Of a DNA stretch of 33,101 nt, positions 6,339-12,214 are shown piece by piece (the stretch's first letter is position 1; every line of letters begins with the position of its first letter). Position numbers and translations under genes: made by a program. The stretch is from Verrucomicrobiales bacterium (GTDB taxonomy: Bacteria > Verrucomicrobiota > Verrucomicrobiia > Verrucomicrobiales > DEV007). Below the pieces are notes generated by a model. It saw only the letters and a list, made by a program, of their open reading frames with translations. It ran no database searches and had not been told where the DNA came from. The stretch is from positions 1 to 33,101 of the forward strand of contig JANQMB010000212.1 of assembly GCA_028280355.1 (NCBI GenBank). The letters run 5' to 3'.

Positions 6339-6482
6339 GTACCCCATGGGGTTCCGCCGGGTCTACGGGGCGACACCTCGCTACCCCCGCCCCCCAGCGG
6401 TGGTGATGGTTGCCCGGCGCCGCGCCCCTTTTGCGGGTTGGTTTTTGTGGCTGAGGTGCTTGGATTGCTAGCAGTTCCCCTG

Positions 6483-8717
6483 ATGGATCCGGTAGTCAAA
6501 GTGTTGGTCGATGGCGCCTCGGGCCTGGAGTTCGACTACGAGCTTCCGCCCGAGCTGGCGGACCGCGTGGTCGTCGGCTCGAGGGTGCGCGTCCCGCTGC
6601 GCAACCGGGCATCGACGGGCACGGTCGTCGGGGTGGGCGAGGGGGGCGATGGCGGGGCGGCGCCGTATCTAAAGCCGATCGGGGGGGTGATCGGCGATCG
6701 CCCGATCCTCACCGGACCGCTGATCGAGCTCGGCCGCTGGATCGCCGGTTACTACTGCGCGCCGATGGAGGCGGTGATGCGCAGCCTGATCCCCGAGGCG
6801 GTGCGGGGCGAGAACCACGATTTCCAGCGACGGCAGTTCGCCAGGCTCGCCCGCGACCCCACGGAGGACGAACTGGCGGCCCTCGGGCGTCGCGCGAAAC
6901 GCCAGGCCTCCGTCCTCGCCGACCTGATCGCCGCCGGGAAACCGGTCGCCGTTGCATCGCTGGGCGCCGGCGGCCGGGCGGCGGTGGACGGGCTGGTGAA
7001 GAAGGGGCTGGTCGAGCTGGGGATGGAGGTGGTCGGCCGCGACCCGCACAGCGACGAACAGTTCGTGCCCTCGAGGCCGCTGGAGCTGACCGCGGCCCAG
7101 GCGGTGTGCCTCGATGCGGTGGTCGCCGCGATGGGGGACCCCGAGGGGGGCAAACCGCTTTTGTTGCACGGTGTCACCGGCAGCGGCAAGACCGAGGTAT
7201 ACCTCCAGGCCATCGCCGCGGCGATCGCGGGGGGCAAGACGGCCCTGGTCCTCGTGCCGGAGATCTCCCTCACCCCGCAGACCGTCGGCCGCTTCAAGAG
7301 CCGGTTCGCGGAGATCCAGGAACAGGTGGCAGTCTTGCACAGCCACCTGAGCGGCGGCGAGCGCTTCGACGAGTGGCACAAGATCGTCGACGGCAAGGCC
7401 AGGATCGTGATCGGTGCCCGCAGCGCGCTGTTCGCGCCGCTGCGTGACCTCGGCCTCATCGTGGTGGACGAGGAGCACGAGGGGAGCTACAAGCAGGACA
7501 CCGCGCCACGCTACCACGCCCGCGACGTCGCGGTGGTGCGTGGCAAGATCGAGGGTTGTGCCGTCCTGCTCGGCAGCGCGACGCCCTCGCTCGAGTCGGT
7601 GCACAACACCGGGGTCGGCAAATACCGGTTGATCGAGCTCCGCGAGCGGGTCGACGACAAGAGCCTGCCGCTGATCCGCGTCGTCGACATGCGCCAGGAG
7701 GCGCGCACCCTGTCCAAGTCCGGCGGCCCGGCGATCATCTCCGAGCGCCTCCGCACGGCGGTCGACCGGCGGCTGGAGAAGGGCGAGCAGGTGATCCTGT
7801 TCCTCAACCGGCGCGGCTTCGCGACCTCGCTGGCCTGCCCCGCCTGCGGGGAGGTGATCGGTTGTCCGCACTGCAGCGTCTCGCTCACTTTCCACCGCGG
7901 CGCCGAGCGGTTGATCTGCCATATCTGCGGCCACCAGCGCGTGGCGCCCCGGCGGTGCCCCGCCTGCCGCGACCCCTCGATCCGCTTCGCGGGCTATGGC
8001 ACCGAGAAGGTCGAGGAGATCCTGCGCAAGGTGTTCCCCTCGGCGCGGCTGGCGCGCGTCGATACCGACACCATGTCGCGCAAGGGCGCCCTGAGGGACA
8101 CCCTGGCGGCCTTCAAGTCGGCGAAGCTCGACATGCTGGTGGGCACGCAGATGATCGCCAAGGGTCTGCACTTCCCCAACGTGACGCTGGTCGGGATCCT
8201 CAACGCCGACATCGGGCTGCACATCCCCGACTTCCGCGCCGGCGAGCGCACCTTCCAGCTGCTGACCCAGGTGGCGGGCCGGGCGGGCCGCGGCGAGATG
8301 GAGGGCGAGGTGGTGATCCAGACTTTCACGCCCCACGGTCCGGCGATCCAGTTCGCCCGCCACCACGATTTCGCGGGTTTCGCCGAGCAGGAGCTGGAGT
8401 TCCGCAAGGCGTTCTGCTACCCGCCATACTACCACTGCGTGCTCGTCACCACCCGGTCGACCCACGCGCGGCGGGCGGAGTTCACCCTCGAGATCCTACA
8501 CAAGCGGTTGGTGGCCGGGCTACCCGACCGCGTGCTGGTGGGGGAGCCGGTGGAGTCGCCGCTGGCGAAGGCGGCCGGGCAGTTCCGCTATCAGCTGATG
8601 CTGCGCGCCCCCTCGTCGCGGGCGCTGGCCCGGCACCTCGGCGCCGTGATGGACGGCCTGACCTTCCCCGACGATGTCCACGTCGCCATCGATGTCGATC
8701 CGCTGCAACTTTCTTGA
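6483..8717 (+). CDS. priA: primosomal protein N', replication-restart helicase PriA
   Basis: The 744-residue protein is close to the length of E. coli PriA (732). After an N-terminal DNA 3'-end-binding domain (about 1-110) and a winged-helix region, the helicase core shows Walker A G-V-T-G-S-G-K-T (230-237) and the DEEH box (329-332). The eight-cysteine zinc module specific to PriA uses Cys 452, 455, 461, 464, 479, 482, 492 and 495. Motif VI appears as Q-V-A-G-R-A-G-R-G. It reloads the replisome at stalled or repaired forks. I chose the ATG at 6483; an in-frame TTG at 6438 would add 15 hydrophobic residues that PriA does not need. It is monocistronic. Confidence 0.95.
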   Translation: MDPVVKVLVDGASGLEFDYELPPELADRVVVGSRVRVPLRNRASTGTVVGVGEGGDGGAAPYLKPIGGVIGDRPILTGPLIELGRWIAGYYCAPMEAVMRSLIPEAVRGENHDFQRRQFARLARDPTEDELAALGRRAKRQASVLADLIAAGKPVAVASLGAGGRAAVDGLVKKGLVELGMEVVGRDPHSDEQFVPSRPLELTAAQAVCLDAVVAAMGDPEGGKPLLLHGVTGSGKTEVYLQAIAAAIAGGKTALVLVPEISLTPQTVGRFKSRFAEIQEQVAVLHSHLSGGERFDEWHKIVDGKARIVIGARSALFAPLRDLGLIVVDEEHEGSYKQDTAPRYHARDVAVVRGKIEGCAVLLGSATPSLESVHNTGVGKYRLIELRERVDDKSLPLIRVVDMRQEARTLSKSGGPAIISERLRTAVDRRLEKGEQVILFLNRRGFATSLACPACGEVIGCPHCSVSLTFHRGAERLICHICGHQRVAPRRCPACRDPSIRFAGYGTEKVEEILRKVFPSARLARVDTDTMSRKGALRDTLAAFKSAKLDMLVGTQMIAKGLHFPNVTLVGILNADIGLHIPDFRAGERTFQLLTQVAGRAGRGEMEGEVVIQTFTPHGPAIQFARHHDFAGFAEQELEFRKAFCYPPYYHCVLVTTRSTHARRAEFTLEILHKRLVAGLPDRVLVGEPVESPLAKAAGQFRYQLMLRAPSSRALARHLGAVMDGLTFPDDVHVAIDVDPLQLS

Positions 8718-8900: not shown

Positions 8901-9236
8901 ATGAAGAAACTGCTTATTGCTACGATGGGCGTCTTTGCCTTAGGCCTCGGCTTCGCCGCCGCCGCCGACGAGGACGCAGAAGCCACCACCTACACGGTGG
9001 GGATGACTGGAGTGACCTGAAACGGCTGCAAAACTTACGTCCGTGGGGCGTTTAAGAAAGTCGATGGGGTCGTTGCAAAGGATCTGAAGAAAGACATCCA
9101 GATCACCGCTGGCGACAAGCCCGGCACGCAGAAGGTCGTCCTCAAGTCGACCAAGGAGCTGACCAAGGAGCAGCTCGTGACCGCGATGGGTCCGAAGAAG
9201 GACCAGTTCGTCGTCCAGAGCGTAAAGAAAGGCTGA
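8901..9236 (+). CDS. exported HMA-domain protein with in-frame TGA in the metal-binding motif (candidate selenoprotein, UxxC)
   Basis: Read through the TGA at 9018-9020, this is a 111-residue protein. A signal peptide (M-K-K-L-L-I-A-T then a hydrophobic core, cut after A-A-A-A near residue 22) is followed by one heavy-metal-associated domain. The HMA signature C-x-x-C-x-x-x-V-x-x-A-F/L-x-x-x-x-G-V is matched as U40-N-G-C43-K-T-Y-V-R-G-A-F-K-K-V-D-G-V, so the TGA stands exactly where the first metal-binding cysteine belongs. The frame stays open for 71 more codons, keeps the codon bias, ends in TGA at 9234-9236 and is followed by a terminator. A plausible SECIS hairpin follows the UGA. In function it would resemble periplasmic MerP/CopZ-type metal carriers or thiol-redox proteins. 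Alternatives are a nonsense mutation or sequencing error (TGC or TGT to TGA). No sel genes lie in the window. Confidence 0.72.
9031..9053 (+). promoter_or_regulatory. candidate bacterial SECIS hairpin
   Basis: Downstream of the in-frame UGA (9018-9020), bases 9034-9038 pair with 9043-9047 (C-G, U-G, U-G, A-U, C-G) around the tetraloop G-U-C-C (9039-9042). Three A-U pairs below (9031-9033 with 9051-9053) enclose a three-base bulge. The apical loop starts with G-U, 18 bases after the UGA, within the usual distance for SelB-binding elements. An alternative longer-range pairing, 9020-9024 with 9049-9053, is also possible. The stem has wobble pairs and was folded by hand only. Confidence 0.45.
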
Positions 9237-9304: not shown

Positions 9305-9326
9305 GGCCCCGACGCGAGTCGGGGCC
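9305..9326 (+). terminator. hairpin terminator after the HMA gene
   Basis: A nine-base-pair GC stem (9305-9313 with 9318-9326) closed by a GCGA (GNRA) tetraloop lies 68 bases after the second stop codon of the HMA gene. The following sequence is only moderately T-rich. Its position after the distal stop and not the TGA fits transcription through the whole 111-codon frame. Confidence 0.55.
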
Positions 9327-10530: not shown

Positions 10531-10959
10531 TTAGGAGTTAAGCGTAAATCTTACAGGCGAGCCTGCACGTTGCGCCAGAAATGCGGCCTTCTCTTTTTGT
10601 TTTGCCTTACCGAAATCTCGGTCAGCCTGCTGCCAATCCCAGCCAACAATGTCAGCATGTCTTGGAGGGGGTTCCTTGGCGATGACATCAAGTTGAACCT
10701 CAAAGACATCCGCTGCCTGTATGATCGCTGCTCCTCGAACGCTGGCAGCTCGACTGGAGAGGGCGGTTGAGGCGATATTCATCAAACCCCCAATTGGGTC
10801 GGAACCATGGCGAAATACAGATGTTTCTCCGTTTTTGGGATTGGGGAGAAATGCGGATGGCTTGACGGCCGAAGTATTGGCGTGTCCAGAAGCAGTTAGG
10901 AACCGGGCGATCGGTTCGACAGCATCGACCTCTTCGGCGAGACCTGACGGCAAACTCAT
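10531..10959 (-). CDS. uncharacterised protein, third gene of the TIGR04255-linked cassette
   Basis: The 142-residue soluble protein has no signal peptide or membrane segment. Near its start it has an E-P-I-A-R-F-L motif, then V-K-P-S-A-F-L-P-N-P-K-N-G-E-T-S-V-F-R, and later an A-D-V-F-E-V-Q-L-D-V segment before P-P-P-R-H-A-D-I-V-G-W. I recognise this pattern (E-P-I-A-R-F ... K-P-x-A-F-x-P ... E-T-S-V-F-R ... P-P-R-H-A-x-I-x-G-W) as a recurring but unnamed family found behind TIGR04255-type genes. Its ATG overlaps the TGA of the gene before it (ATGA at 10956-10959), so translation is coupled. GC content is clearly lower than in the flanking genes. Confidence 0.75.
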   Translation of the reverse strand: MSLPSGLAEEVDAVEPIARFLTASGHANTSAVKPSAFLPNPKNGETSVFRHGSDPIGGLMNIASTALSSRAASVRGAAIIQAADVFEVQLDVIAKEPPPRHADIVGWDWQQADRDFGKAKQKEKAAFLAQRAGSPVRFTLNS

Positions 10960-11474
10960 ATAGCCGCAATCCGCCGAATCTCGTCGAGAATCCTAGGCGG
11001 GATTTCGCTATGCGAGTAGCGCTCTACCGCACTACCTCGGTTTGAACCATCCACCCACGCGTACGGGATCCTGCCATTGACTCCTAGGCTCATCGTAAAG
11101 GTGCTAGTCTGTGAGGGGAGCCAGTCAAACGAGACACATCCGTCCGGATCAACCGAAAGCTCCGGCATGGGCAATGAATCGGGGAGCATTCTGATAAACT
11201 CCTCGGCGTACAAGAGCGAGCTGGGTTCGACTGCGGATGCACCGTAGCCATCCCAACCTTCGGAGCCGCACTCATCCGCGAGTTCAACGAGCGTGGAGAG
11301 CGCATTCTGTCTCTCCCCGAACAAAGAAACAGATTTTTCGCTCCAGGTGGCGATCTCCTGTGCGCTCCCGTGCACAGAATCCGCTTCAGCTGATACAGCG
11401 CTGCTTGGTCGCCTCAGGGGGGCGAACGAGAGATAGCTAGCTGCTAGTCCTGCGGCGAAAATAGGCTCAGGCAT
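10956..11474 (-). CDS. uncharacterised protein, second gene of the cassette (WDGYGA family)
   Basis: The 172-residue protein carries a W-D-G-Y-G-A-S-A-V segment near residue 75, then E-F-I-R-M-L-P-D-S-L-P-M-P-E-L-S-V-D-P-D-G-C-V-S-F-D-W, a strand-rich region, and I-P-P-R-I-L-D-E-I-R-R-I at the C-terminus. The first 25 residues are hydrophobic and might be a signal or simply mark too early a start. I recall this motif order as a conserved unnamed family that sits between a TIGR04255 gene and the E-P-I-A-R-F family. Its start overlaps the upstream gene by 31 bases and its stop overlaps the next start by 4. No catalytic motif is apparent. Confidence 0.72.
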   Translation of the reverse strand: MPEPIFAAGLAASYLSFAPLRRPSSAVSAEADSVHGSAQEIATWSEKSVSLFGERQNALSTLVELADECGSEGWDGYGASAVEPSSLLYAEEFIRMLPDSLPMPELSVDPDGCVSFDWLPSQTSTFTMSLGVNGRIPYAWVDGSNRGSAVERYSHSEIPPRILDEIRRIAAI

Positions 11475-12214
11475 CGGTCGGTCAAAATGTGCATGAAAAC
11501 CTTGTTCTTCAAGCTTCTTAGCGAAATGATTCGATCAAATATCTTCCCCCAATCTGAGCACTCCATCCGATCTGTGTGAAAAACGTCTATATCTAACACG
11601 ACAGGAAGCGCGTCTTCAACTTGTTCTTGTGTGCTCTTCACGAGCCTTATCCGATTTCTGGTTTCTTGGTCGATTGCCATATGCTGTTCGAGGAACCCAG
11701 TAAACGCGAGGGGGAGGCCGGTAGTAGGGAGCGTCGGAGGTGCGCGAAAGTACTCACCGAAAGAAAGTCGCCCGTCTTTCTCGAACGGGATCGACAGCCT
11801 GTTGATCGTTCGGAGTGAGATCCGTGAGATCTTTAGGGGTTCCGCCAGATCGAGATAGGTTTCCCAAGCTGTTTTGATTGTGGGGAGGTAATCGTCGAAA
11901 CTCGAATAAGGAGCAAGTCGGTTAAAGCTGAATCCGTTGGGGCGGAACTGGACTATTTCCTTCTCGTCATGGCTTAAGTACTGTAGGGCTCCAATCGATT
12001 CGATAGTCCTGAGTTCAGGATTCTGATTCTGATCCTGCCTAAGCTCATGATGCGTCACATGTTGGCGTTTGAAATTCGGGAACGATTCTGCGAACCGTTC
12101 TCTTGCAGCAGCGTCGATTTTTTCGTGATCGGATCCTTGCGGAAGGTCGCAGTCGATATCTAGCACCGCTTCGATAATGGGAGCGTCGGTGAGTTGGGGG
12201 GTAGGGTCTTCCAT
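11444..12214 (-). CDS. TIGR04255-like protein, first gene of the cassette
   Basis: The 256-residue cytoplasmic protein opens with L-T-D-A-P-I-I-E-A-V-L-D-I, the typical start of the sporadically distributed TIGR04255 family. It continues with the family-like V-Q-F-R-P-N-G-F-S-F-N-R-L-A-P-Y and R-I-S-L-R-T-I-N-R-L segments and a C-terminal V-F-M-H-I-L-T-D-R-C-L. The length fits the family (about 240-270). To my knowledge no member has an established biochemical function. It leads an overlapping three-gene minus-strand unit with lower GC than its surroundings and terminators on both sides, features common in horizontally acquired cassettes. The family call is from motif memory. Confidence 0.75.
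   Translation of the reverse strand: MEDPTPQLTDAPIIEAVLDIDCDLPQGSDHEKIDAAARERFAESFPNFKRQHVTHHELRQDQNQNPELRTIESIGALQYLSHDEKEIVQFRPNGFSFNRLAPYSSFDDYLPTIKTAWETYLDLAEPLKISRISLRTINRLSIPFEKDGRLSFGEYFRAPPTLPTTGLPLAFTGFLEQHMAIDQETRNRIRLVKSTQEQVEDALPVVLDIDVFHTDRMECSDWGKIFDRIISLRSLKNKVFMHILTDRCLSLFSPQD

Follow-up and report, generated by a model that had tools for sequence, protein, structure and literature searches.

Introduction

Is the TGA at codon 40 of a short open reading frame from a Verrucomicrobiales bacterium a stop, or is it read as selenocysteine (Sec, U) in an exported protein of the heavy-metal-associated (HMA) type? The frame lies in a stretch of 33,101 nucleotides, here called the window, and ordinary gene calls would close the gene at 9020, after 39 codons. 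The original prediction, made from the letters of this stretch, read through the codon and proposed a selenoprotein with a UxxC motif. Comparison with relatives shows Sec decoding, the SECIS hairpin, downstream selection and the fold class, and on this footing the window gene is very probably a genuine selenoprotein with an HMA fold. Its function is weighed below between binding of soft metals or reduced selenium, redox chemistry, and the handling of selenium in the cell envelope. Coordinates are collected in Table 1.

Table 1 Features of the candidate selenoprotein gene and its surroundings; positions are those of the window.
Feature	Position	Strand	Basis or remark
priA, upstream neighbor	6438..8717	+	Pfam PriA domains; order priA - selenoprotein also in L012, L013, and G793
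Full selenoprotein gene	8901..9236	+	111 residues with Sec40; ATG to TGA stop
N-terminal signal peptide (MKKLLIATMGVFALGLGFAAA), about residues 1-22	8901..8966	+	Read from sequence
HMA domain, ferredoxin-like, beta-alpha-beta-beta-alpha-beta, residues 29-110	8985..9230	+	AlphaFold2, Foldseek, Pfam HMA in relatives
In-frame TGA, predicted selenocysteine U40, position 1 of U-x-G-C	9018..9020	+	TGA or Cys in aligned homologues
TGC, Cys43 of U-N-G-C, second ligand or resolving Cys	9027..9029	+	Invariant in A1 and A6
Bacterial-type SECIS hairpin	9037..9051	+	Covariation in sets of 14 and 66 sequences; Cys homologues do not retain it
SECIS arms (ACGTC / GGCGT)	9037..9041 / 9047..9051	+	
SECIS loop (CGTGG)	9042..9046	+	
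Possible terminator, a GC-rich hairpin 3' of the gene	9305..9326	+	Sequence; T-poor tail; not listed by terminator scan

Results and Discussion

Reading frame on both sides of the TGA

The translation of 8901-9236 reads MKKLLIATMGVFALGLGFAAAADEDAEATTYTVGMTGVT-U-NGCKTYVRGAFKK...VKKG; after the signal peptide the protein runs TTYTVGMTGVT-U-NGCKTYVRGAFKK, and both start and length of the gene are conserved among relatives. The TGA is followed by 71 codons up to the stop at 9234-9236. Codon-usage fit to the window is 0.57 downstream of the TGA versus 0.26-0.30 in the DNA after the gene, as the original prediction of a continuation with normal codon use would have it; over 19 pairs of relatives with the TGA form, dN/dS in the part after the TGA is 0.13. 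Because selection is this strong and codon usage fits, the downstream part is, on sequence evidence, protein-coding and under purifying selection. The prediction also had the frame end before a terminator: a strong GC hairpin does follow the gene, but its tail is poor in T and the terminator scan does not list it (Table 1), so that this remark is only partly right. In two related loci (L009 and L010) a hairpin with a T run is found 3' of the selenoprotein gene.

Homologues and the Sec/Cys position

Among 84,980 species genomes scanned, six relatives were found, 54-58% identical; all come from Verrucomicrobiales or Verrucomicrobiaceae MAGs, and all (6/6) share the TGA codon and the x-G-C after it. 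The nearest homologues of the window genome (G000; MAG of 4.42 Mb, 370 contigs, 85.6% complete) likewise place it among Verrucomicrobiales MAGs. A class-wide profile search (384 genomes) gave matches in 22, with the TGA form in 8 and forms without in-frame TGA in the others; an order-wide search (387 genomes) matched 142 genomes, and 65 of the 150 matches listed, from 59 genomes, have one in-frame TGA. A phylum-wide search with A4 gave only weak matches beyond the order, the best at E 6.7e-9; many lie in frames as long as a P-type ATPase. No relative was found among the viral contigs searched. Over the 48 nt that begin at this codon, the comparison set used below comprises 66 distinct TGA and 39 distinct Cys sequences. 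Homologues thus have Cys or TGA at the position, and the TGA falls on the first cysteine of the HMA C-x-x-C motif, as had been read from the window.

An error of sequencing or assembly (TGC to TGA) might be suspected in a MAG of 370 contigs. The same TGA occurs, however, in independent assemblies from different projects, six independent Verrucomicrobiales MAGs among them, so that an error is scarcely credible and the recurrence at this one codon is more than chance.

Two loci hold a longer form. In L198 (about 7000-7521; G655) and L157 (G747) a single frame encodes two HMA domains with one in-frame TGA each; this tandem double-Sec form has U-G-G-C twice, and the G747 copy is truncated where its contig ends.

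SECIS hairpin

The strongest evidence for Sec decoding is a predicted hairpin 3' of the TGA, which the original prediction did not contain. Counting the T of TGA as 0 in a gap-free alignment, its arms are +19..+23 and +29..+33, around a loop of five nt. In 14 TGA sequences the five core pairs are standard in 14/14, with changes on both sides at three pairs; in the 66 TGA forms five core pairs are kept in 60 and four in 6, and in the Cys forms all five are kept in 0/39. Pairing across the 66 TGA sequences extends to 98.2% of cells, versus 25-47% for control structures slid by 1-3 nt; compensatory cells number 28, versus 4.1 in shuffles. When the region 3' of the TGA was folded as a single sequence, its z-scores did not stand out; the hairpin became visible only in the alignment.

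Loop positions 2-3 are G-T in 65/66 TGA sequences (G-G in one); the loop codon is therefore CGT or AGT in 65/66, although both are rare among their synonyms in the window (CGT 3.8% of Arg codons, AGT 1.2% of Ser codons). In the SECIS of E. coli fdhF, SelB contacts G and U at loop positions of this kind. For the selD gene of the window genome, too, a hairpin is predicted about as far downstream of the in-frame TGA, with loop GGTC. A bacterial SECIS is expected to be a hairpin immediately downstream of the UGA whose small apical loop contains a G (PMC1088965), and the hairpin at 9037-9051 has this form.

One Cys form, from G243 (L027/L053), a genome without SelA, groups with the TGA forms; of its hairpin the 5' arm and loop are kept and the 3' arm is lost. 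This looks like a Sec-to-Cys change with hairpin decay, on a long branch whose placement is unsure.

Selenium machinery and co-occurrence

Sec machinery, named in the original prediction as a check, is present in the window genome: tRNA-Sec (on C300, at 63.7 bits, and called as SeC, tca, by ARAGORN as well), SelA (470 bits), and SelD (354 bits; own in-frame TGA at a CGU-AAK motif). SelB was found as a C-terminal fragment of 221 residues only (wing domains, contig end, C124); a further match (C189, 189.5 bits) was rejected as SelB, being EF-Tu. Matches to RF01852, which below about 55 bits also include Ser/Leu-type tRNAs, were counted only with support from length, score, or ARAGORN.

Of the 56 genomes with the TGA form, 55 have SelA (two of them as fragments scoring under the cut-off), against 1 of the 44 that have Cys forms only. 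The TGA genome without a SelA match, G054, is 75% complete; its tRNA-Sec gene lies about 1 kb from the selenoprotein gene, on the same contig. The sole exception to the co-occurrence is G654, in which SelA is present and the only form found has no in-frame TGA. Genus g334 is mixed: G757 has the TGA form and SelA, G702 and G719 have neither. Since two Sec/Cys changes suffice on the tree, the co-occurrence does not represent many independent events; an independent-pairs test was not significant, with too few changes.

These data also bear on the view that the TGA truly ends translation, or is a disabling mutation, leaving a peptide of 39 residues or a pseudogene. TGA is a normal stop in the window, used by 4 of the 11 genes taken for codon counts; against this stand one TGA codon conserved in 66 distinct sequences, the covarying hairpin, the low dN/dS downstream, and the Sec machinery, which make a stop very improbable. 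The TGA is thus best read, from comparison of genes and genomes, as a recoded UGA, neither a nonsense mutation nor a sequencing error.

Signal peptide and HMA fold

The charged start and hydrophobic stretch of the signal peptide are retained in relatives; in G273 and G243 the N-terminus resembles a lipoprotein signal instead (by eye). The AlphaFold2 model, built with seven sequences, has low confidence over the signal peptide and a confident domain at residues about 29-110 (block pLDDT 84-93), in which U40, modeled as Cys, lies between strand 29-36 and helix 41-52, i.e., in the beta1-alpha1 loop. Foldseek matches are HMA domains and MerP (1osd, rank 2), at modest scores (best E 4e-3, query TM 0.4-0.5). 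The HMA assignment of the original prediction is supported by fold and by relatives: Pfam HMA (PF00403) is matched by relative L014 at 38.4 bits, above the cut-off of 24.8, and by 15 of 17 family members at E<=0.01; the window protein alone scores weakly, 18.1 bits, below that cut-off. The Met of the HMA motif GMTC is not kept in TGA forms. A PF00403 search of the protein's own genome gave none at E<=0.001; a P-type ATPase of this genome, found via TIGR01525, nevertheless has a CxxC HMA-like stretch, so that the empty search is not taken to mean that other HMA domains are lacking.

Relation to known proteins

The closest likeness is to MerP (TIGR02052), the periplasmic mercury-binding protein, which is also an exported single HMA domain with C-x-x-C in the loop where the window protein has U-x-x-C. 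TIGR02052 is the best NCBIfam match of the window protein, at 26.1 bits, far below the cut-off of 92.55; unlike MerP, the window protein has Sec for the first Cys, other residues flanking the motif, and no adjoining mer operon. Two further NCBIfam models contain Sec: NF041115, UxxU metal-binding (seleno)protein, is HMA-like with Sec at the first motif position but has two Sec, whereas the window motif is UNGC (21.6 bits, cut-off 95); NF045683, MerT/CopZ fusion-like heavy metal transport selenoprotein, has a CopZ-like part but is a fusion model of 235 positions, whereas the window protein is small and exported (12.5 bits, cut-off 375). The window protein and two relatives stay far below the cut-off of every Sec-HMA or MerP-like NCBIfam model.

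In the literature, the GOS survey lists mercuric transport protein MerP as a selenoprotein (Table 2 there; 2 sequences, 1 sample, no Cys homologue), a table entry without motif or sequence to compare (PMC2398784). A cation-transporting E1-E2 ATPase selenoprotein with UxxC has been inventoried together with the UxxU metal-binding protein (PMC13188914); like the window protein it has UxxC, there in a metal-transport protein, but it belongs to the P-type ATPases, whereas the window protein is small and exported. None of the 119 families in that 2026 inventory is a small exported HMA protein with UxGC (PMC13188914; open-licence literature). Sec in HMA/MerP-like proteins is thus already on record, and the small exported UxGC form is uncatalogued there.

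Gene neighborhood

The gap between priA and the selenoprotein gene is 138-184 nt (window, L012, L013, G793); in L009-L011 the gene lies downstream of a ZnuA-like gene. In the window its neighbors are priA and glycine-zipper genes, and neither a mer operon nor a dedicated metal partner was seen beside it. Further downstream, three genes on the minus strand (10531-12214), one of the TIGR04255 family, lie between the glycine-zipper genes and PPDK; the equivalent stretch in the syntenic L012 is a much shorter gap, and PADLOC gave no match on 10531-12214.

A different setting is found in genus g2. In 7/7 inspected genomes (L180 and L182, from G755 and G680, respectively, and five more) the gene is divergent from MnmH/SelU (115-169 nt) with a NifS-like gene next; in 4 of these 7, SelD, SelA, and a putative selenate ABC transporter (TIGR04553) lie within about 13 kb. 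The island of G680 additionally has SenB-like and ArsS genes. This arrangement suggests a selenium link of the HMA selenoprotein in g2, a link absent in the window. In G071 an exported thioredoxin-like protein, a possible redox partner, is encoded 27 nt downstream of a Cys form (L059, 8364-8843).

Proposed mechanism and function

Translation would start at 8901; a SelB-tRNA-Sec complex, placed by the hairpin whose loop begins 21 nt past the UGA, would insert selenocysteine at UGA 9018-9020, and translation would then run on to 9236. The product would be exported via its signal peptide and would fold as an HMA (MerP/CopZ-like) domain with U-x-G-C in the loop before helix 1. The selenolate-thiolate pair may then bind a soft thiophile in the cell envelope, Hg2+, Cu+, Ag+, Cd2+, or reduced selenium species; binding would parallel that of Hg2+ by MerP, with Sec lowering the pKa and raising the affinity. 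We give a binding or carrier role for the U-x-G-C protein about an even chance.

A purely redox role appears less probable; the HMA domain would then be the scaffold of a thiol/selenol oxidoreductase in the periplasm. Most Sec sites are redox sites, U-x-x-C motifs included (PMC13188914), and the thioredoxin-like gene next to the Cys form of G071 and the loss of the GMTC Met in TGA forms point the same way; the fold, however, is HMA and not thioredoxin-like, and no thioredoxin neighbor was noted in the inspected TGA-form loci. The more specific version, a U-x-G-C selenenylsulfide reduced by an exported thioredoxin, is likewise a minority reading.

Roles other than binding, transport, or redox are together rather unlikely. 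One candidate is that the protein handles selenium in the envelope, binding selenite-derived or selenide species or shielding them from metals, for uptake. The g2 island, with MnmH/SelU and NifS-like genes adjoining in every inspected genome, and the nearby tRNA-Sec gene of G054 favor it; yet the gene is not near selenium genes in the window and in other lineages, Cys forms occur in species without SelA, and co-location may reflect only co-regulation or joint transfer, so that selenium handling is a doubtful explanation at present. It overlaps with the binding role preferred here, as reduced selenium could be the ligand.

Significance

On a bolder reading, which we regard as rather improbable, these genes would form a clade-wide envelope selenoprotein family of the Verrucomicrobiae whose HMA domain carries or reduces selenium, or shields it from soft metals, for uptake, double-HMA, double-Sec forms included. 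The finding adds a well-supported selenoprotein family to the Verrucomicrobiae, a group unnamed in the 2026 prokaryotic selenoproteome inventory (PMC13188914). Sec in an exported site of the metal-binding type would tune both redox properties and the affinity for metals, and the natural Cys homologues permit a direct Sec-versus-Cys comparison of the benefit of selenium at such a site.
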